Origin: Pseudomonadota bacterium
GTDB lineage: Bacteria; Desulfobacterota; Desulfobulbia; Desulfobulbales; SURF-16
Reading direction: 5' to 3'
DNA length: 64,000 nt
NCBI GenBank assembly: GCA_018816555.1
Contig: JAHIVT010000138.1
Coordinates: forward strand, 35,388-99,387
A program made the translations under genes and the position numbers. Under the pieces are notes generated by a model. That model was not told where the DNA came from and did not search any database. It saw only the letters and a list, made by a program, of their open reading frames with translations. Positions 550-17,352 of the stretch are shown piece by piece (positions within the stretch are counted from its first letter, which is position 1; the number at the start of each line of letters is the position of its first letter).

Positions 550-2508
550 ATGGATACCTTTTTTCTGTCTCTTGCCGTGATAGTATGTGGCGGCGTGTTG
601 CCTCTTGTCATGCATCGGCATTTCACTATTATGAAAGCAGGCTGCTGCGTCCTGATAGCCGCCGGTTGCATGCTGGGACTCTTTGACGCCCTTTCCTTGC
701 TCTTGCACCCAGCTGTTGCCGCCACATATACCCTGCCGTGGTTGCATATCTTTACGTTGTCCTTTCAGATGGACAGTATATCCGCTTTTTTTCTTGTCCC
801 GATCTTTCTTATTTCACCGCTGGCTGTGCTGTATAGTTTCCATTATATGGAAAAACCGGAGCAATCTTTTAGAACGGCGATCAATTATTTCTTTAATGCG
901 ATTCTGATTGTTTCCATGGCCCTGGTTGCCTGTGCAGACAATATTCCCACCTTTGCCCTGGCCTGGGAAATTATGTCGATTTCTTCATATTTTCTTGTCG
1001 TCTATGACTATCAAAATAAAGACACTAGACAGGCCGGCTACCTTTATTTTATCTTTGCCCAAGGCGGTGCCATGTTTCTCTTTGCCGCCTTTGCACTTAT
1101 TTACAGCTATACCGGCAGTTTTGCTTTCACTGGATTCGCGGCAATTCCCGACACGGTAAAGCTCGTGGTTTTTGTCCTTGCTTTCATCGGCTTCGGCTCT
1201 AAAGCAGGTATCTTTCCGCTGCACATCTGGCTGCCTTACGCCCATCCAGCTGCCCCGAGTCATATTTCAGCGGTCATGTCCGGAGTGATGATCAAGATGG
1301 GCATCTACGGTATCATCCGCATTTATGCCCTGCTTGCTGTCCCCTCCATGATTTTTGGCCAGATAGTCTTGATTGTCGGCATGGTAACTGGTGTTCTTGG
1401 CGTGGTGTATGCCCTTGGCAACCAGGATGTGAAAAAACTGCTGGCCTATAGCAGTGTCGAGAATATCGGGATTATTCTGATCGGTCTTGGTGTGGGCATG
1501 ATCGGGGTGGCTACCGGAACCGATGCCATGGCCTTTTTTGGTTTTGCCGGCGCCTTCATGCATGTTTTTAATCATTCAATATTCAAATCCCTTCTCTTTA
1601 TGGGGGCCGGGGCCGTACTGCATAAAGCAAAAACGCGATCTATCGATCAACTGGGAGGGTTGTTAAAAAGAATGCCTGTCACAGGTCGCACATTTCTGAT
1701 CGGCTCTCTGGCAATTTCAGGCCTCCCGCCATTCAGCGGCTTTATCGGCGAATTCCTCATTTATTATGCGAGTTTTCAGGGAATTCATCTTCAACGTACC
1801 GCGTTTATTCTCTCCGCGCTTGCCATCATATCTCTGGCCGTAATCGGAGGACTTGCCACAGCCTGCTTTACCAAGGTGGTGGGGTTGGCATTCTTGGGTG
1901 AGCCGCGAACCGATAAGGCCGCTCATGCAAGCGAGGTTGGTTTTTCCATGCAGCTGACCATGATTTTTCTTGCCGCGGCATGTCTGCTGATCGGCGTTCT
2001 GCCGGAACCTTTTGTCCGACTGGCTTTTAAGGGCATTGCCGATCTACCGTTGTTGGGCAGTTATAATCCGGATATTTTTATTGATATCCTGCGCAACATC
2101 GCCAAAACAGCGGCTCTTTTTATTGCCCTGTTTCTGGTTGTTTCTCTATTCCGCAAGCTGCTCTACTGGCGCAAGGAAGTGAGTGCCGGGCCTACCTGGG
2201 GATGCGGTTTTACCAGGCCCACTGTCAGAATGCAGTATACCGGTACTTCCTATGCCGCTTCCATGATCGATTTTTACCGGCCGTTTGTGCCGGTAAAGAC
2301 GTTGTATTCTGGGATCAGAAAGATTTTTCCGGGACAAACCACTTATCATACCGAGGTAATTGATGTTGCGGAAACCAATATGCACGAGAAAATAGTCAGA
2401 CCTCTTTTTAAACTGCTGCAAATGCTGCACTGGATTCAGCATGGCCATATTCAGCTCTATATCGGGTATATCGTTCTGACGATTGTCGTGATGTTGTTGT
2501 TTCTCTAA
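550..2508 (+). CDS. hyfB: Proton-conducting antiporter-like membrane subunit (NuoL/M/HyfB family) of a group 4 hydrogenase-like complex
   Basis: 652 aa multi-TM ORF with GxKAGxxPLHxWLPxAHPAAPSxxSAxxSGxMIKxGxYG and ENIGII motifs; first gene of hyf-type cluster. Confidence 0.85.
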   Translation: MDTFFLSLAVIVCGGVLPLVMHRHFTIMKAGCCVLIAAGCMLGLFDALSLLLHPAVAATYTLPWLHIFTLSFQMDSISAFFLVPIFLISPLAVLYSFHYMEKPEQSFRTAINYFFNAILIVSMALVACADNIPTFALAWEIMSISSYFLVVYDYQNKDTRQAGYLYFIFAQGGAMFLFAAFALIYSYTGSFAFTGFAAIPDTVKLVVFVLAFIGFGSKAGIFPLHIWLPYAHPAAPSHISAVMSGVMIKMGIYGIIRIYALLAVPSMIFGQIVLIVGMVTGVLGVVYALGNQDVKKLLAYSSVENIGIILIGLGVGMIGVATGTDAMAFFGFAGAFMHVFNHSIFKSLLFMGAGAVLHKAKTRSIDQLGGLLKRMPVTGRTFLIGSLAISGLPPFSGFIGEFLIYYASFQGIHLQRTAFILSALAIISLAVIGGLATACFTKVVGLAFLGEPRTDKAAHASEVGFSMQLTMIFLAAACLLIGVLPEPFVRLAFKGIADLPLLGSYNPDIFIDILRNIAKTAALFIALFLVVSLFRKLLYWRKEVSAGPTWGCGFTRPTVRMQYTGTSYAASMIDFYRPFVPVKTLYSGIRKIFPGQTTYHTEVIDVAETNMHEKIVRPLFKLLQMLHWIQHGHIQLYIGYIVLTIVVMLLFL

Positions 2509-2553
2509 AATTCGGGAATAACCAGGCACATCCTGTAAAATCAATAGAGGTAA

Positions 2554-3474
2554 TTGATGGAATCAATAGTATCATTCTGCTTTGCAATACTTGCTGCGCC
2601 TCTCCTGTCGGCAATTATTATGAAAGTAAAGGCCTATATTGCCGGGAGGAAGGGTCCCCCCATTCTGATAAAGTATTATACTCTTGCCAAGCTGTTTAAA
2701 AAGGGTTCCGTGTATAGTACCAGTTCAAGTTTTGTTTTTAAGCTGGGGCCGGTGGTTTCCTTCTGCAGTGTTGTTATGGTGTTGCTTTTTTTCCCCTTCG
2801 CCGGGATAAAACCGCTCTTGTCCTTTCATGGCGATGTGATTATCCTCCTCTATCTTATGGGGCTTGGCCGCTTCTTCACCATTATAGCCGCCCTTGATAC
2901 TGCTTCGCCCTTTGAGGGCATGGGTGCAGCCAGAGAGGCCTACTTTTCCACTCTTGCCGAGGCGACACTTTTTGTTATTCTGCTGCTTTTTTATAGGTTG
3001 AACGGGTCTTTCAGCTTTGCCGCCTTTTTCACAGGGACAACTGCCATCAACCTGTGGAGCCCGGCTGCTTCACTGTTGTTGCTCGTCATAGTCGCCTTGT
3101 TTGTCGTTCTTTTGACGGAAAACTCCAGGGTGCCGGTGGATGATCCGGCTACTCATCTTGAGTTGACCATGATTCACGAGGTCATGATTCTTGATCACAG
3201 CGGGCCGGATCTTGCCCTTATTGAACTGGGCGCCTACCTGAAATTGTTTTTTTATTCCGCCTTTATCACCTGCCTGCTTTATCCCTTTCAACTGGATAAC
3301 GTCTATCTGAACGGCCTGATTTTCTACGGTATCATGGGCATGATTTACGTACTGGTGGGGATAACGGAATCCATTATGGCCAGATACAAGATGAATCTGG
3401 TACCAAAGTTTATTCTGACCTCCTTTGCTCTGGTATTTTTTGCGACCATTCTCACCATGGAGTTTGTCAAATGA
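2554..3474 (+). CDS. hyfC: NuoH/HyfC-like membrane subunit
   Basis: 306 aa; GRKGP..., ENSRVPVDDPATHLELTMIHEVMILDHSGPDLALIE motif typical of HycD/HyfC. Confidence 0.85.
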   Translation: MMESIVSFCFAILAAPLLSAIIMKVKAYIAGRKGPPILIKYYTLAKLFKKGSVYSTSSSFVFKLGPVVSFCSVVMVLLFFPFAGIKPLLSFHGDVIILLYLMGLGRFFTIIAALDTASPFEGMGAAREAYFSTLAEATLFVILLLFYRLNGSFSFAAFFTGTTAINLWSPAASLLLLVIVALFVVLLTENSRVPVDDPATHLELTMIHEVMILDHSGPDLALIELGAYLKLFFYSAFITCLLYPFQLDNVYLNGLIFYGIMGMIYVLVGITESIMARYKMNLVPKFILTSFALVFFATILTMEFVK

Positions 3475-4124
3475 TACAGCTTTCCGATGCAATACTGTCC
3501 CTTGTGCTGCTGTCAGTTCTTTTGTCATTAAGCTCAAACAGGCTTATGGGGTTGGTCAGGATTATGGCCTTTCAAGGCATCCTGGTTTCCCTGGTGCCAT
3601 TGTTTCTTGATCAGCATCAGGGAATTGGCGCCGGCAGTATTCTTTTTTTGCAGATCATGATTCTGATTAAAGGGATCCTTATCCCCGGCTTTATGTATAT
3701 TGCCGTCAATAAGGTAAAAATGAGAACGGAAGTCGAGCCGTTTGTCGGCTATCATGCCTCACTTTTTACCGGTTTGGCCTTTATCGTTATTTCCGCCTAT
3801 ATTACGGAGCGGCTGAATATTTCCCTTCCCGGCGGCCATGCTCTTCTGCTGATCACCGCCATTACCACGATGGCTTCAGGGCTTTTTTTGCTCATGGCCC
3901 GACGCAAGGCCATTACCCAGGTTATCGGGTACCTGATGATGGAAAATGGTATTTATCTGGTGGGCGCGGCACTGGCAAAGGAATCTCATACTCAGTATGT
4001 GGTTGAATTCGGCGTGCTGCTCGATCTGTTGGTCGGCGTTATGATTATGGGTATTGTTCTGCATAACATCAACAGCGCTTTTGACGATGTGGACACCGCA
4101 CTGCTTGGACGATTAAAGGATTGA
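3471..4124 (+). CDS. hyfE: HyfE-like (NuoK-like) membrane subunit
   Basis: 217 aa multi-TM ORF, overlaps hyfC stop; 'VIGYLMMENGIYLVGAAL' NuoK-like motif. Confidence 0.75.
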   Translation: MIQLSDAILSLVLLSVLLSLSSNRLMGLVRIMAFQGILVSLVPLFLDQHQGIGAGSILFLQIMILIKGILIPGFMYIAVNKVKMRTEVEPFVGYHASLFTGLAFIVISAYITERLNISLPGGHALLLITAITTMASGLFLLMARRKAITQVIGYLMMENGIYLVGAALAKESHTQYVVEFGVLLDLLVGVMIMGIVLHNINSAFDDVDTALLGRLKD

Positions 4125-4128
4125 GAAT

Positions 4129-5556
4129 ATGTTAGAACTGGTTTTCCTCATACCCCTGTTTGCCGGAATAATGGCAACATTTCTCCCTGTGAAGCTCGGC
4201 AGGGTCATTCTTGTCATCACCGCCCTTTTGCATGTGCAGCTGACCGGGATGTGCTGGCTGAAGATCTCGGCGCCGATGTTTGATGATTATTTCCGCGCCA
4301 CACCGGAAGGCACTCTGGTGCTTCTTGTCACCTCCTTCATCTTTCTGTTCATCTCCATTTATAGCGTTTCCTACATGAGAGAGACGGAAATGGAAAATGA
4401 GCATGTTTTCATCGGCTGCATGCTTTTTTTCCTGGCTGCCATGAGCATGGTGACTATGGCTGATCATCTTATCGTCCTGTGGATAGCCATCGAGGCCACC
4501 ACTCTGGTCAGCGCCCCATTGATCTTTGTGCATCGGTCCAAAGAAGCTTTGGAGGCAACCTGGAAATACGTACTGATCTGCTCAGTGGGCATTGCCTTGG
4601 CTCTCCTCGGGTCTTTCTTTATCACCCTGTCCATGGACATCGGCCAGGTGGATGTTCCGCTGGCCTTTTCCGCACTGCAGGCCGTGGCCGCAAATCTCGA
4701 TCCGGTCTGGCTCAAGGCGGGATTTGTTTTTGTGGTCATCGGCTACGGCACCAAGATGGGACTGGCTCCCATGCATACCTGGCTTCCCGACGCCCACAGC
4801 GAGTCTCCCAGCCCTGCATCAGCCCTTTTGTCAGGTGCTCTGCTGAACTGCGCGTTTCTCGGAGTCTATAAGACTCACACCCTGCTCTATGCTGCCGGGC
4901 TCGGCACCTATTCGAGCAATGTCCTTATAGTTTTCGGTCTGGTCTCCATGTCCGTTGCCGCGGTTTTTATTATGAATCAGACCGATTACAAGCGGATGCT
5001 GGCTTACTCGAGTATCGAAAACATGGGTATCATAGCCTTCGGCATCGCCATCGGGGGATTGGGCACGTACGGGGCCATGCTGCATCTGATCCATCACTCG
5101 CTGATTAAGTCCTCCCTGTTTCTGTCGTCCGGCAATATTCTGCTCGGCTACGGTACGAAACTTATCAGCAAGACAGGCAATATGGCGAAGTTGCTGCCCA
5201 AGACCTTTCTTGCCTTTTTTGCCGGTTTTGCCGGGATCTCCGGTTTCCCGCCTTTCGGCATATTCATCAGTGAGCTGCTGATCATTATCGGTGCTTTTCG
5301 CAGTGGCCGTTTTGTGAGCATCGGCATTTTCATTTTCTGTTTGATCCTCATTTTTGCGGGCGCTGCGCGTCTCGTCATGCGCATGTCATTTGCCCAGCAT
5401 GATGAGGACATTCTGGTGCAGGAAAAAATGCTGAGGATCCTGCCCTCCTATGCCCTTTTGTTGACCTCCGCGATCCTCTGTGTGTGGCTTCCGGAAAGTC
5501 TTTATCAAACTATTATCAACGCAATCACAGCTATCGGGGGTGGGTTGAATGGATAA
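4129..5556 (+). CDS. hyfF: HyfF-like proton-conducting antiporter-like subunit
   Basis: 475 aa; 'GYGTKMGLAPMHTWLPDAHSESPSPASALLSGALLNCAFLGVYK' motif. Confidence 0.85.
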   Translation: MLELVFLIPLFAGIMATFLPVKLGRVILVITALLHVQLTGMCWLKISAPMFDDYFRATPEGTLVLLVTSFIFLFISIYSVSYMRETEMENEHVFIGCMLFFLAAMSMVTMADHLIVLWIAIEATTLVSAPLIFVHRSKEALEATWKYVLICSVGIALALLGSFFITLSMDIGQVDVPLAFSALQAVAANLDPVWLKAGFVFVVIGYGTKMGLAPMHTWLPDAHSESPSPASALLSGALLNCAFLGVYKTHTLLYAAGLGTYSSNVLIVFGLVSMSVAAVFIMNQTDYKRMLAYSSIENMGIIAFGIAIGGLGTYGAMLHLIHHSLIKSSLFLSSGNILLGYGTKLISKTGNMAKLLPKTFLAFFAGFAGISGFPPFGIFISELLIIIGAFRSGRFVSIGIFIFCLILIFAGAARLVMRMSFAQHDEDILVQEKMLRILPSYALLLTSAILCVWLPESLYQTIINAITAIGGGLNG

Positions 5557-7057
5557 CCTCCTTAAAATTGACAATGGTGAAACAGTAAAACGAAGCGATA
5601 TCCCTCAGCTGTCCTTTGATGTTTTTCGCCGGGAATTGCTCGATTTTGCCGTTAATGGCGGGCAGATTGTCCACTATTTTGCCTATGAGGATGACGGCGT
5701 ACTCAAGGTCATGGCTGTCTTACGCAATGATGACGGTCTGTACGTCACCGGCAGCGATGTTGCCGAAACCTATCATGCCTTGACCGCGGACTGCGAAAAA
5801 TTCCACATGTTCGAGCGGGAGATCGCCGAACAGTACGGGGTTCGGCCGTATGATCATCCGTGGCTGAAACATGTCCGTTACCATGCCAATTACCGGAATC
5901 GGGAGGATGTCTTTGGCAATGATTACAGCCAGGATATCCCCGGCAATTATGATTATTTCCCGGTGGAAGGGGAGGCAATTCATGAAGTGGCGGTCGGACC
6001 TGTGCATGCCGGTATCATCGAACCGGGCCATTTCCGTTTTCAGTGCATTGGCGAAGAGGTTCTCCATCTTGAGATCCAACTCGGCTATCAGCATCGCGGC
6101 GTTGAGAAGATGATGCTTGAGGTGCCGAGGAAACGGATGCCCGTTATCGTTGAAGGCATTGCCGGCGATACGGCTATCGGCCACAGTCTCTGCTACGCCC
6201 AGGCCATTGAATCCCTGGGCTCTGTTGCTGTTGATGAGGGGGCAAGAATCGTCCGCTCCATCGCCCTTGAGCTGGAACGTATTGCTAACCATACCGGCGA
6301 TCTTGGCGCCCTGAGCGGCGACGTGGCCTTTAACCCTCCGGCTGCCTATTTCGGCCGGCTCAGAGGCGAGTTTCTCAATCTCCTCATGGTGCTCTCCGGC
6401 AACCGTTTCGGCAAGGGCCTCGTCCGTCCCGGGGGCGTTGCCTATTCCATGGGCCAGGAGCAGCGCCAGCTTCTTATCGACAAGATAAAGGAAACAAAGC
6501 CTGAGGTTGAACATGTCTGTGATCTGCTGTTTACGGCCCACACCGTCCAGGCCCGTTTTGATCTCACGGGGACAGTCGACAGGGAAACGGCGGAGAAGCT
6601 CGGCCTTGTAGGCTATTCAGGCCGGGCCTCCGGTCTTGCATATGACGCACGGGTCAGTTTCCCCACCGAATGCTATGCTGGGTTGCCGGCTAATATGAAT
6701 AATAAGACCGATGGTGATGTCGCCAGCAGGGCAACGGTGCGCAGAGAGGAAATCGAACACTCCTTTCTTTTGATTGAAACACTGCTGGCAAAAAATGTCG
6801 AAACGGAAAGTGTTCTGGCCGGCGAGTGCAAACTTGCGCCCTCCTCCTTTGTTGTCACCATCAATGAAGGCTGGCGGGGAGAAATTTCCCATTGCCTGCT
6901 GACAGGTGCGGGAGGCGAGATTCTGCGTTACAAGGTCAAAGATCCTTCCTTTCACAACTGGACTGGGCTGGCCATGTCGCTTCGTAATCAGGGCATATCA
7001 GATTTCCCGCTCTGCAATAAAAGCTTTAACCTCTCCTACTGTGGTTTTGATCTGTAA
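5549..7057 (+). CDS. HyfG/HycE-like large subunit (30 kDa + 49 kDa-type domains) lacking NiFe-site cysteines
   Basis: 502 aa; HxGxIEPGHFRF, GYQHRGVEK, ELERIANHTGDLGAL are family motifs, but the L1 region reads EGIAGDTAIGHS and the C-terminus DFPLCNKSFNLSYCGFDL. Confidence 0.85.
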   Translation: MDNLLKIDNGETVKRSDIPQLSFDVFRRELLDFAVNGGQIVHYFAYEDDGVLKVMAVLRNDDGLYVTGSDVAETYHALTADCEKFHMFEREIAEQYGVRPYDHPWLKHVRYHANYRNREDVFGNDYSQDIPGNYDYFPVEGEAIHEVAVGPVHAGIIEPGHFRFQCIGEEVLHLEIQLGYQHRGVEKMMLEVPRKRMPVIVEGIAGDTAIGHSLCYAQAIESLGSVAVDEGARIVRSIALELERIANHTGDLGALSGDVAFNPPAAYFGRLRGEFLNLLMVLSGNRFGKGLVRPGGVAYSMGQEQRQLLIDKIKETKPEVEHVCDLLFTAHTVQARFDLTGTVDRETAEKLGLVGYSGRASGLAYDARVSFPTECYAGLPANMNNKTDGDVASRATVRREEIEHSFLLIETLLAKNVETESVLAGECKLAPSSFVVTINEGWRGEISHCLLTGAGGEILRYKVKDPSFHNWTGLAMSLRNQGISDFPLCNKSFNLSYCGFDL

Positions 7058-7133
7058 GGGCTTGGTTTCGATTGTTTGAGCAGAGACGCTGCAGATCGTT
7101 GCTCTTTTACACAAAGCCGATGAGGATTTTGGA

Positions 7134-7877
7134 ATGTTGAAAATAATACAGAATAGAATGGAACAGGGGTGTCGTACCTCGAAATATCCTAAAACCCCGA
7201 TTACTCTTAATAAGAGATATCGGGGTCTGCCGAAAATTCACAAGAATTGCCCGGCATCACTTATGAAAAAATGTGCCGATCTGTGCCCGCAGGATGCCAT
7301 TGATGCTGATAATGGTTTGATTGATCTCGGTCGCTGTGTTTTTTGCGGCCAATGCGAAACCCTGTCAAAGGGTGATTTTGTTCAGTTCACCCAGAACTTT
7401 GAACTTGGCGTTGCCAAAAAAGAACATCTGCTGACAAATGGCAACCTGCCCAAACTTGCCGAGAATGCGAAAAAACATTTTAAGAAGCTGTTTGGCCGCT
7501 CCCTGCAGCTGCGCCAGGTTTCCGCAGCCGGCTGCAATTCCTGCGAAGCCGATACCAACGTTTTAAATACCCCCTTTTTTGATCTCGCCCGATTCGGCAT
7601 CCAGTTTGTCGCCTCTCCCCGGCATGCCGATGGCATTCATGTAACCGGCCCAATTTCCAGGAACATGCAGGCCGCACTTCTGACCACCTATGAAGCTGTT
7701 CCTGCACCGAAGATTGTTATTGCCAGCGGCAGCTGTTCCATTTCCGGCGGGCCTTTCCGGGGAAGCCCTGATGTTGTCGGCGACCTGAACAGCCTGCTCC
7801 CCGTGGATCTCTATATTCCCGGCTGCCCGCCACACCCGCTCACCACCCTGCATGCCCTGCTGAATTATTTCAAATAA
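7134..7877 (+). CDS. HyfI/NuoB-like small subunit with N-terminal ferredoxin-like segment
   Basis: 247 aa; CxxC (AAGCNSCE), GSCSISGGPF and GCPPHP cluster ligands; CVFCGQC and CADLCP upstream. Confidence 0.85.
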   Translation: MLKIIQNRMEQGCRTSKYPKTPITLNKRYRGLPKIHKNCPASLMKKCADLCPQDAIDADNGLIDLGRCVFCGQCETLSKGDFVQFTQNFELGVAKKEHLLTNGNLPKLAENAKKHFKKLFGRSLQLRQVSAAGCNSCEADTNVLNTPFFDLARFGIQFVASPRHADGIHVTGPISRNMQAALLTTYEAVPAPKIVIASGSCSISGGPFRGSPDVVGDLNSLLPVDLYIPGCPPHPLTTLHALLNYFK

Positions 7878-7880
7878 AAA

Positions 7881-7924
7881 ACGTAATTCACTCACTTTAA
7901 AAACTTAAGCTGAGTGAATTGCGT
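7881..7924. terminator. Stem-loop after the hydrogenase-like operon
   Basis: ACGTAATTCACTCA / TGAGTGAATTGCGT inverted repeat, 14-bp stem; no strong T-tract. Confidence 0.5.
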
Positions 7925-8204
7925 CTTCAGCATGAATCACATCCCGTTTTCCCGCGAATATTCATAGAGTTGTTTATTCAAGGTACTGCTTTATTCTTTT
8001 TTTGTGTTGCTCATTTGAGCGGTAAGGGCCGTTGATTCATCGCAGTTGCGTGCCCATCTGTGATCAATGAGAAGTCAGGGCATTATTTTTTATTCTTGAC
8101 CTGTATAAATTTTCCATCTATTTAATTGAGCAATATTACCCAAAATTCCGGAGATGTATTTTAAATGACAACATAAAAATGTGAGGCAAAGGGGGATTTG
8201 ACTA

Positions 8205-9386
8205 ATGTTCAGGCAATACCGGGAGTACTATGTGACGAGAAAGTTGGCGCCATTCAAGGTTGACGGTCTGGCAATGCCCTATCCGGAGTTTGTTCCTAGG
8301 CTCTATAACTTCTGTAAAGCGCTTGGCTTCAGGAAAGGGTTGATCATGCCGTCCAGGGCTTTTTGTTCTGATGAAAATCAAGGTCTGCCCATTATCCTTC
8401 TTACCAAGCATTTTGGCACTTTTCCCTTTAATCATGGCCGTGTTGGCGGTATTATGGCCATTGACAGACACGGCCCCCACTCCCATCATGGGGAGGATCT
8501 GGTCATTGTCCAGGCAAGTCATGTGGGCTATGATCCTGATACCGGCGTTTATGGGAATTACGCTCGACCGCAGCGGATAGGCAAATGTGTCGGTGCCTCC
8601 TGCGGCAAACTCACCCATGTCATTTCACCCTATCTGGAACAATACAAGTTTGCCAAAGATCGGATTTTCCTGCACCGTGACGAACAGGGCAGATATCTGA
8701 TCACCGTCAAGAATACCTTTATCGACTTTGCCTTTCACCCGGTCAAGGACGGCCTGGTCCTGCGTTTGCAAAATATTGCCAAGATGGGCAATGGCGGCCT
8801 GATCCGGCCTGTAACCGCCGCAAGCACCTCACAGGTATACGAAGTATCGGATGAGTTCCGCCAGCGTACAGATGCCGCCGACTATCAATGGAAGGGCGGT
8901 GAGGGGGAACCCATCGGCGATCTATTGGCCGAAGACATGTTTTTCTTCCGGGAAGATTTTCATGAAACAGATGAATCGATCCTGCTGGAAAGAAATATTA
9001 TCGAATTCATGCCCAACATCGTTACCGCCCCGAATCCTTCCCTGCGGGCGGCCAAGATCAACCTCCAGCTGGAATTTACCCGGGTGGTGGAATCCATTCG
9101 GCGCGGCACGGAATACAAAGGGAGAAATCTTCTCTATATCGCCGGCCTTAATCTCGATATATCGGAAACTGACGATTTCCCGGCAACGAATTATTTTGTT
9201 CCCTGGGCCGCCCATATTCAGCTGGAGGGAGAAGGTCCTGGCGAACATGCCCATCCCATGGAGCAGGATGAACTGTATGACAATCTGATGACACACAGCA
9301 TCGAGAATCCTGATCAGGTTAATCTGAAGGAAGAGATCGGCAGGATGTTGAAGATGCCGCATTATGATATACGGTCACCCAAGTAA
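8205..9386 (+). CDS. LCIB-like putative beta-carbonic anhydrase-fold protein
   Basis: 393 aa; FCSDEN, GRVGGIMAIDRHG, VIVQASHVGYDPDTG..YARPQRIG..VGASCGKL resemble the Cys/His/Cys zinc-site context of the LCIB family. Confidence 0.55.
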   Translation: MFRQYREYYVTRKLAPFKVDGLAMPYPEFVPRLYNFCKALGFRKGLIMPSRAFCSDENQGLPIILLTKHFGTFPFNHGRVGGIMAIDRHGPHSHHGEDLVIVQASHVGYDPDTGVYGNYARPQRIGKCVGASCGKLTHVISPYLEQYKFAKDRIFLHRDEQGRYLITVKNTFIDFAFHPVKDGLVLRLQNIAKMGNGGLIRPVTAASTSQVYEVSDEFRQRTDAADYQWKGGEGEPIGDLLAEDMFFFREDFHETDESILLERNIIEFMPNIVTAPNPSLRAAKINLQLEFTRVVESIRRGTEYKGRNLLYIAGLNLDISETDDFPATNYFVPWAAHIQLEGEGPGEHAHPMEQDELYDNLMTHSIENPDQVNLKEEIGRMLKMPHYDIRSPK

Positions 9387-15192: not shown

Positions 15193-17352
15193 GTGATGAT
15201 ATACAAAATTTTCCCCTTTCTTGCCTGGTTCACAGGGTATGACGCTGGCAAATTTAAAACAGACCTTTTGGCCGGTATTACCGTTGCACTTGTCTTGATT
15301 CCCCAGTCCATGGCCTATGCTCAGCTGGCTGGACTACCTCCCTATTACGGATTGTATGCAGCCTTTCTGCCACCTATGGTGGCCTCGCTTTTCGGCTCCA
15401 GTCGCCAGCTTGCCACCGGGCCTGTAGCGGTTGTGTCGCTGATGTCTGCAGCATCTCTTGAACCACTTGCCACGGCAGGGTCTGCCGAATTTATAGCCTA
15501 TTCAATTGTTCTTGCCCTGATTGTCGGTATTTTCCAGTTTTCCCTCGGCGTTCTGCGTCTGGGTCTTGTTGTAAACTTTCTTTCCCACCCGGTTGTCAAC
15601 GGCTTCACCAATGCGGCAGCCATTATCATTGCCTCATCCCAGTTTTCAAAATTTTTCGGAGTTTATGTGGACAAGGGGACTCACCATTATGAAACCATGG
15701 TGAGCGTGTTTCAGGCGGCAATGGATTTCACCCATATCCCGACACTGATGTATGGTATCGGGGCGGTTGTCATCATGGTGGTGCTCAGGAAGATCAACCC
15801 GCGCATTCCCAACGTGCTGGTAGCGGTGGCCATTACCACGCTGATTTCCTACTTCACCGGTTACAATAAGGACGCTTTTGTTGATATTTCCGCCATTCAG
15901 CTCAATGGTCTTCAGGAGCAGGCCGCTGATTTTAATGCGACGGTGAAAGAAGTAAAAAAAATGGGTGAGGAGCGGGCTGCCCTTGGTCTCAAGGTGGATG
16001 AGGAGTTGAAAAGCATCAAGGAGAAAGGCCACGGCTCCACATCAATTGAGCTGATTAAACTGAAGAGCGAGGTGGAAATTCTGTCCAGCAGGATGGAAGA
16101 AGCAAAAAATCATGCCGGAGATATTCGTGATGTTGTCCGCAAGATGAAATTTGAAGGGGTGAAAGTGGGTGATAATTACATCTTCTATCCAAAAGATGCT
16201 GTTCCTGCAGGCGTGCAGACCGATGGCAACATCTGGCGGATCAAGATTGGAAATTCCGCGCTTGACACAACCAAAATCAAGGTTATGGGCGGCGGTGACG
16301 TGGTTGGCAAGATTCCTGAAGGTCTCCCCCAGTTCACCGTGCCGCAGCTCTCCGTAAAAAAATTCTTCAAGCTGCTGCCCACCGCTGTTATTATTTCCCT
16401 GCTGGGATTTATGGAAGCCATCGCCATTGCCAAGGCCATGGCGGCTAAGACCGGCCAGAAGCTTGACCCGAACCAGGAACTCATCGGCCAAGGCCTGGGC
16501 AACATACTTGGCTCGATCGGCTCCAGCTATGCGGTGTCGGGTTCCTTTTCCCGTTCCGCCGTTAACCTGCAGGCAGGTGCGGTTTCCGGTGTTTCCGCGG
16601 TTGTCACCTCTCTTATGGTTGTTGTCACCTTGCTGTTTTTTACGCCGCTGCTCTATCATCTACCCCAGGCTGTTCTGGCCGCGGTAATTATGATGGCGGT
16701 TATCGGTCTTGTCAACATCAAGGGTTTTGCCCATGCCTGGAAGGCGCAATGGTATGACGGAGCAATTTCCATTCTCTGCTTTGCTGTTACTCTTTATTTC
16801 GCCCCGCATCTTGATAAGGGCATTATGGTCGGTGTAGCTCTTTCCATGGGTGTTTTTCTGTATAAATCCATGCGGCCGGTGGTGGCCAGCCTGTCCATGC
16901 ATGAGGAAAACGTGCTGAAAAGTGCTGAGTACTATCGTCTCAAGGGCTGTCGCCACATTTCAGTGGTACGTTTTGACGGTGCTCTGTTTTTTGCCAATGC
17001 CAGCTATCTTGATGAACAGGTCATGAAATTCCGTAACGAACAGCCGGATCTGCGCTATATCCTGCTGGATGCCAGGGGTATCAATGATATGGACGCCTCC
17101 GGCGAGGAGGCCTTGCATCTCCTTGTCGAGCGGGTTCGCAGTGCGGGCCTTGGGTTTGCCATGTCCGGCGTCAAGGGGCAGGTGATGGTTGTCATGCAGC
17201 GCACCGGCTTGTTGGATAAAATCGGCAAGGATAGTCTTTTCCCCGATACGGAGCAGGCGGTTAAAACCATTATTAAGAAAATTCATGGCACTGGTGATCT
17301 TCCCGCAGATGGGTGCAAGGATTGCCCCTTAACCAAGTATATTCCTGCCTAA
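15193..17352 (+). CDS. SulP family anion transporter with C-terminal STAS domain and a coiled-coil-like insertion
   Basis: PQSMAYAQLAGLPPYYGLYAAFLP, SFSRSAVNLQAGA, C-terminal STAS (LLDARGINDMDASGEEAL). Confidence 0.9.
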   Translation: MMIYKIFPFLAWFTGYDAGKFKTDLLAGITVALVLIPQSMAYAQLAGLPPYYGLYAAFLPPMVASLFGSSRQLATGPVAVVSLMSAASLEPLATAGSAEFIAYSIVLALIVGIFQFSLGVLRLGLVVNFLSHPVVNGFTNAAAIIIASSQFSKFFGVYVDKGTHHYETMVSVFQAAMDFTHIPTLMYGIGAVVIMVVLRKINPRIPNVLVAVAITTLISYFTGYNKDAFVDISAIQLNGLQEQAADFNATVKEVKKMGEERAALGLKVDEELKSIKEKGHGSTSIELIKLKSEVEILSSRMEEAKNHAGDIRDVVRKMKFEGVKVGDNYIFYPKDAVPAGVQTDGNIWRIKIGNSALDTTKIKVMGGGDVVGKIPEGLPQFTVPQLSVKKFFKLLPTAVIISLLGFMEAIAIAKAMAAKTGQKLDPNQELIGQGLGNILGSIGSSYAVSGSFSRSAVNLQAGAVSGVSAVVTSLMVVVTLLFFTPLLYHLPQAVLAAVIMMAVIGLVNIKGFAHAWKAQWYDGAISILCFAVTLYFAPHLDKGIMVGVALSMGVFLYKSMRPVVASLSMHEENVLKSAEYYRLKGCRHISVVRFDGALFFANASYLDEQVMKFRNEQPDLRYILLDARGINDMDASGEEALHLLVERVRSAGLGFAMSGVKGQVMVVMQRTGLLDKIGKDSLFPDTEQAVKTIIKKIHGTGDLPADGCKDCPLTKYIPA

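Follow-up and report, generated by a model that had tools for sequence, protein, structure and literature searches.

Members of the LCIB family of beta-carbonic anhydrases (CAs) are known mainly from algal CO2-concentrating systems. In LCIB and LCIC the residues His162/161 and Arg194/193 are important, yet the purified algal LCIB and LCIC proteins have no CA activity (PMC5876011), while the diatom proteins PtLCIB3 and PtLCIB4 appear to be active (PMC9614477). Complex-I-type membrane modules associated with a CO2-hydrating protein have precedents in cyanobacterial NDH-1MS/CupA (PMC6981117) and in DAB2 (PMC13144422). NDH-1MS is a complex-I-like pump that lacks the NADH module, is probably fed by ferredoxin and carries as a structural subunit the zinc-containing, CO2-hydrating CupA, which has an unrelated helical fold. 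In the DAB/DAC systems (DabA-DabB), a NuoL-type membrane protein is genetically paired with the beta-CA-like DabA, a member of another, longer family (PF10070) in which the Asp-Arg dyad is intact; redox subunits are absent. Energy-converting hydrogenase-related (Ehr) complexes, which combine subunits resembling group 4 hydrogenases but devoid of NiFe ligands with antiporter-like subunits, are suspected to couple redox reactions to charge translocation and have been proposed to work with formate dehydrogenase (PMC6349859). According to a 2024 review, CA genes are repeatedly found next to formate hydrogenlyase genes in organisms using the acetyl-CoA pathway, for example Desulfocapsa sulfexigens, an arrangement that it considers difficult to understand; its text does not mention LCIB (0 matches) and names the complex a formate hydrogenlyase (PMC10880623). 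No paper joining LCIB, Desulfo-type bacteria and carbonic anhydrase was found in a search of a limited body of literature, an absence that is not proof of novelty, and within the same literature LCIB_C_CA/PF18599 occurred in one diatom paper.

The locus described here lies in a 64,000-nucleotide stretch of DNA (the window) from a 4.9 Mb desulfobulbal genome assembly whose nearest relatives include Desulfurivibrio sp. and Desulfobulbaceae. The original prediction placed an LCIB-like protein with a CA fold at 8205..9386 (+), and this assignment was upheld: the open reading frame is intact, begins with ATG, encodes 393 amino acids and is the only LCIB-type gene of the genome, and the motifs on which the assignment had relied are present in the product (CSDEN at C54-N58, ASHVGYDPDTG with H106 and VGASCGKL with C133). 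The sole Pfam match of the protein is PF18599 (LCIB_C_CA; E=4.9e-5), at 23.2 bits just below the 25-bit cut-off, and the same family is matched by 31 of 32 relatives (E<=0.1), matches that take the motifs beyond coincidence; a PF10070 (DabA) match was absent from the Pfam search. In sequence searches of the PDB, LCIB became detectable only with a profile extended to distant members. Neither the single sequence, which gave no match at all, nor a narrow profile of 32 rows recovered LCIB, and the wider profile retrieved the diatom PtLCIB4 (E=1e-6), followed by 6kfs, an LCIB-domain protein, and other LCIB-domain chains. The AlphaFold (AF2) model (pLDDT 86, pTM 0.85) adopts an LCIB-type beta-CA fold, so that the finding that would have refuted the assignment, a structure without this fold, was not obtained. 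Foldseek comparison of the model with the PDB returned eight chains at E<0.001, all from the LCIB family (PtLCIB4, LCIB, LCIC and 6kfs), among which 5b5y matched with E=5.7e-9 and a TM-score of 0.75 by target. Similarly, a second predicted model, from a relative at ~25% identity, found the LCIB family first and canonical beta-CAs more weakly thereafter. Profile and predicted structure thus give good support for a place in the LCIB-type beta-CA superfamily, where the protein represents a bacterial branch of its own. The branch shares with LCIB/LCIC (PtLCIB4, CrLCIB, CrLCIC) the fold, the CxD motif and the His and second Cys ligands, and differs in being only 10-13% identical to the solved members in structural alignment, in its length of ~390 amino acids against fewer than 250 resolved residues in the solved chains, in scoring below the Pfam cut-off in the case of the window protein, and in its association with Ehr, Dab, Mrp and SulP genes in place of a pyrenoid.

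The putative zinc site consists of C54, H106 and C133, with D56 and R121 as further active-site residues, all numbered by alignment to PDB chains. C54, D56, H106 and C133 are invariant in 32 of 32 aligned relatives and remain so in a wider alignment that includes members at 20-27% identity, and in the wider-profile search all five positions were matched in PtLCIB4. The replacement of the Arg of the canonical CxDxR dyad, which had been noted from the sequence as CSDEN, was confirmed (Asn58), but it is a trait of the LCIB type and not a defect peculiar to the window protein, since the solved PtLCIB4 reads CSDEV at this site and also lacks the Arg. As in LCIB/LCIC, a later Arg is conserved instead: R121 aligns with the Arg of PtLCIB4 GTVARR, is ~90% conserved in the wider set and is inferred from the alignment to be the catalytic Arg. 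Read beside the inactive algal LCIB/LCIC and the apparently active diatom PtLCIB3 and PtLCIB4, the residue set is compatible with catalysis, with zinc binding and CO2 hydration unproven. A divergent paralogue (L077:7360-8472, - strand), 26% identical to the window protein and located near a normal copy, keeps the zinc set and has no Arg aligned to R121, and may be inactive for that reason.

Preceding the CA gene in the window are six genes (550-7877, all + strand) whose Ehr-type character, also part of the original prediction, was borne out by family matches and by alignment to Escherichia coli HycE. EhrB (550..2508; 652 aa) is a NuoL/HyfB-like antiporter-type membrane subunit (PF00361, E=3e-57) whose best NCBIfam match, hydrogenase 4 subunit B, falls below its cut-off. 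It is followed by the NuoH/HyfC-like membrane subunit EhrC (2554..3474; 306 aa; PF00146, E=7e-31), the HyfE/NuoK-like membrane subunit EhrE (3471..4124; 217 aa; NF008556, hydrogenase 4 membrane subunit, E=7e-23, below cut-off) and EhrF (4129..5556; 475 aa), a HyfF/NuoN-like antiporter-type membrane subunit that matches PF00361 (E=2e-48) and hydrogenase 4 subunit F models. The small subunit (7134..7877; 247 aa; PF01058, E=3e-26) is fused to an N-terminal ferredoxin-like part and keeps the N2-type cluster cysteines C134, C137, C201 and C231, which are invariant or nearly so in 26 aligned sequences. The HycE/NuoCD-like large subunit (5549..7057; 502 aa) aligns with E. coli HycE (7z0s_E; E=2e-38) and has lost all four NiFe cysteine ligands, CGIC being replaced by AGDT and PCYSC by LSYCG. 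The operon fits an Ehr complex, in which redox-coupled ion translocation is inferred only from the antiporter-like subunits.

A CA coupled to a formate hydrogenlyase, turning formate-derived CO2 into HCO3- for a formate:bicarbonate antiporter, has been suggested in the 2024 review (PMC10880623), where CA genes lie beside genes called formate hydrogenlyase in Desulfocapsa sulfexigens. For the present locus this proposal is highly improbable: with none of the four NiFe cysteines of HycE retained, the 550-7877 complex is no formate hydrogenlyase. The genes flanking the cluster are unrelated housekeeping genes (uvrA, pilus/secretin genes, rsmB, a laccase-family gene, DUF3373 and glyQ) and include none for a formate dehydrogenase. 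Of the expected energy-coupled CO2/bicarbonate or formate-related system, the formate half is accordingly disfavoured; the CO2/bicarbonate outline is supported by the conserved Ehr linkage and co-occurrence presented below, with the coupling itself inferred. In contrast to the Ehr complexes proposed to work with formate dehydrogenase (PMC6349859), the genetic partner of the window's Ehr complex is a CA, and the arrangement reported for Desulfocapsa sulfexigens is probably a cluster of this kind whose pump was given the wrong name, although this is an inference.

Linkage of the CA gene to Ehr operons in other genomes, which the original prediction had proposed as a check, is conserved, so that its other refuting condition, a lack of any conserved Ehr neighbourhood, was not fulfilled either. 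Among 80 homologous loci that were mapped, 47 of the Desulfobulbales type had enough sequence to be informative, and in 31 of these the CA gene adjoins an Ehr operon, with a median gap of 272 bp. The CA gene lies just upstream of EhrB in 29 of the 31 loci, where the gene order, given a long enough contig, is CA-B-C-E-F-large-small, and downstream in two, both from the window's genus; L003, a third congener, is arranged like the window but escaped the automatic count. CA-Ehr adjacency is also present in the cable bacterium Candidatus Electrothrix (L028, L045). The CA is likewise paired with another Ehr type, a divergent one that has an additional gene resembling NuoL (L011, L148). In a tree of the family, the Ehr-linked members are grouped in the Desulfobulbales-type clade, with the gammaproteobacterial members apart. 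In 58 related genomes, in which a close Ehr was defined by a large subunit at 65% identity or more, the CA and the close large subunit each occur in 15, with both present in 13, the CA alone in two, Ehr alone in two and neither in 41 (Fisher P=3e-9, kinship ignored); this value overstates independence because the genomes are related. By comparison, a near-complete large subunit at 44-49% identity occurs in ten genomes, only one of which (G039) has the CA, there adjoining a DASS carrier. Tandem LCIB-type duplicates ahead of an Ehr operon were observed in L012 and on contig C147 of G010 (L086, L097).

The same-order linkage across many genera and the strong co-occurrence with one Ehr subtype only argue against an ordinary soluble LCIB-type CA that balances cytoplasmic CO2/HCO3-, with its Ehr, Dab, Mrp and SulP neighbours reflecting co-regulation for pH or ion homeostasis without mechanistic coupling. 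The gene's repeated pairing with transport genes of various kinds, for carbon or for ions, speaks against it as well, and this alternative is considered unlikely, but several observations favour it or count against a coupled module. About a third of the Desulfobulbales-type loci have no adjacent Ehr gene, and two genomes (G050, locus L133; G057, locus L134) carry a close Ehr operon with no LCIB-type gene found anywhere in the genome. Canonical beta-CAs are common in the group, with four matches in the window genome, so that the LCIB-type protein could not be retained as a candidate for the cell's only CA. In addition, a gap sets the CA gene apart, and within the window's genus a promoter of its own is probable. 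The 327-bp gap between the Ehr operon and the CA gene (7877 to 8205), together with a stem-loop, had earlier been taken to suggest a separate transcript. Both elements are real: an inverted repeat (7881..7924, no strand assigned) follows the last Ehr gene with core arms AATTCACTCA and TGAGTGAATT, and two congeners (L002 and L003) preserve these arms. However, the repeat has no T-run and the terminator scan made no call. A promoter-like stretch, TTGACC-17-TATTTA, lies at approximately 8095..8135 (+) and is conserved within the genus in an alignment of the window, L002, L003 and L004, although it is a weak consensus for which the promoter scanner made no call. From these features a separate CA transcript is plausible in the window's genus; outside it, the CA gene precedes the Ehr operon on the same strand.

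The genes found beside the CA also include anion carriers and further ion-transport systems. In the window, a SulP-family anion transporter of 719 aa (15193..17352, +; PF00916, E=1e-103) is encoded ~6 kb from the CA gene, and homologues 73-77% identical to it adjoin CA or Ehr genes in other genera. A SulP gene follows the Ehr operon in five cases (L017, L032, L036, L042 and G025), the order CA-Ehr-canonical beta-CA-SulP occurs in two genomes (G008 and G009; loci L136 and L149), and a canonical beta-CA gene also follows the Ehr operon in L009 and L014; small flanking genes in L016 and L012 were considered as CAs and rejected, being a TPR protein and a methyltransferase, respectively. The gammaproteobacterial homologues share ~45% identity with the window protein. 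In L074, L081 and L132 their neighbours are DabA and NuoL-type genes, an overlap with the DAB systems, and some copies adjoin SulP genes. Mrp genes adjoin the CA in L006, L063, L080, L116 and L124, the last three gammaproteobacterial. In a fresh gammaproteobacterial set, SulP lay within about 9 kb in six of 20 loci (P=2e-5 at a chance rate of 3%, which is an assumption loosely guided by the roughly 1-2 SulP genes per genome in the window's relatives). DASS/SLC13-type anion carriers likewise adjoin LCIB-type proteins, mostly distant ones (L109, L110, L135, L143 and L144). Among the hosts examined, 14 of the 15 from the Gammaproteobacteria had a RuBisCO match above cut-off, and the seven others had none. 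Acetyl-CoA synthase (CdhC) is encoded in the window genome and also in 52 of the 58 relatives, a distribution too wide for it to be discriminating. A plasmid-borne origin was not supported, with no plasmid matches.

The same carriers and hosts leave room for a CA-fold protein with another role, such as the hydrolysis of COS or CS2 in sulfur metabolism or, without catalysis, service as a barrier to CO2 or as a regulator, beside SulP and DASS proteins that move sulfate. The hosts, judged from their record names, are largely sulfur disproportionators, sulfate reducers, cable bacteria and sulfur oxidisers; sulfate carriers occur among both the SulP and DASS families, the closest solved SulP by sequence being a plant sulfate transporter and the closest solved relatives being transporters of sulfate and other anions; and the inactivity of purified algal LCIB/LCIC (PMC5876011) could be read in the same way. 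Comparison with these solved relatives does not allow bicarbonate specificity of the SulP protein to be decided from sequence. Nevertheless, the complete conserved zinc-site set, the linkage to DabA operons and canonical beta-CA genes, and the RuBisCO of nearly all gammaproteobacterial hosts speak against such a role, and it is regarded as distinctly unlikely. The sulfur habit of many hosts, the sulfate-carrying relatives of SulP and DASS and the inactivity of the purified algal proteins also weigh against the reading preferred here.

That preferred reading, judged moderately probable, is that the window gene encodes a cytoplasmic, zinc-dependent LCIB-type CA, from a bacterial branch distinguished by a longer C-terminal part, within a conserved inorganic-carbon module that includes an ion-pumping Ehr complex. 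It rests on the predicted fold, the invariant zinc-site residues, the gene linkage, the co-occurrence across genomes and the loss of the NiFe ligands, all of which are observed, and draws further support from the carbon and ion-transport partners (DabA with NuoL, Mrp, SulP), the RuBisCO-containing gammaproteobacterial hosts and the CdhC of the window genome; CA activity and its direction, ion pumping, contact between the CA and Ehr, energy coupling and bicarbonate as the SulP substrate are inferred. The Ehr complex, a relative of complex I and hydrogenase 4 that has lost its NiFe centre, would take electrons from a ferredoxin-like donor, hand them to an acceptor that is unknown but may be a quinone, and pump H+ or Na+, while the LCIB-type CA beside it would interconvert CO2 and HCO3-. 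By analogy with NDH-1MS/CupA and DAB2, the pump could carry off the proton released by CO2 hydration or sustain an ion gradient for HCO3- uptake. The set would be completed by the SulP carrier and, in certain genomes, also by a canonical beta-CA. The likely purpose would be the capture or retention of inorganic carbon for autotrophy by the acetyl-CoA pathway. Compared with NDH-1MS, the module would use an LCIB-type protein in place of CupA and an Ehr pump, and the association established so far is one of gene linkage only.

A stronger form of the proposal makes the LCIB-type CA a working subunit of the Ehr complex, in which redox-driven pumping by the former hydrogenase renders CO2 hydration directional. 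It depends on an inferred contact and is offered tentatively, as possible but rather unlikely. If true, NDH-1MS and DAB would be joined by a third CO2-uptake machine assembled independently around a module resembling complex I. It would be the first such machine in anaerobes whose carbon fixation runs through the acetyl-CoA pathway, and it would assign a function to one Ehr subtype. In outline, the locus joins an LCIB-type CA, within a conserved module, to an Ehr-type complex that probably pumps ions. The linkage to Ehr and anion-carrier genes across dozens of related genomes suggests an undescribed form of energy-coupled inorganic-carbon handling in anaerobes. With this finding the LCIB family reaches into sulfur bacteria, cable bacteria among them, and becomes linked to anion carriers and ion pumps, and a class of hydrogenase-derived complexes of unknown role receives a concrete proposed function. 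The finding also offers a testable answer to the puzzle, stated in the 2024 review, of CA genes beside a "formate hydrogenlyase" in Desulfocapsa.

Two further features of the neighbouring genes were observed. Upstream of the CA gene in L009, L013, L014, L033 and other loci lies a recurrent pair of response-regulator-like and sensor-kinase-like genes (clusters c6 and c9), which perhaps regulates the CA-Ehr module, the gene class having been judged from sequence alone. The SulP protein of the window (15193-17352) carries an insert of ~120-150 residues between its two Pfam-domain halves that looks partly coiled-coil-like by eye, and similar long SulP proteins occur once per genome in many relatives.
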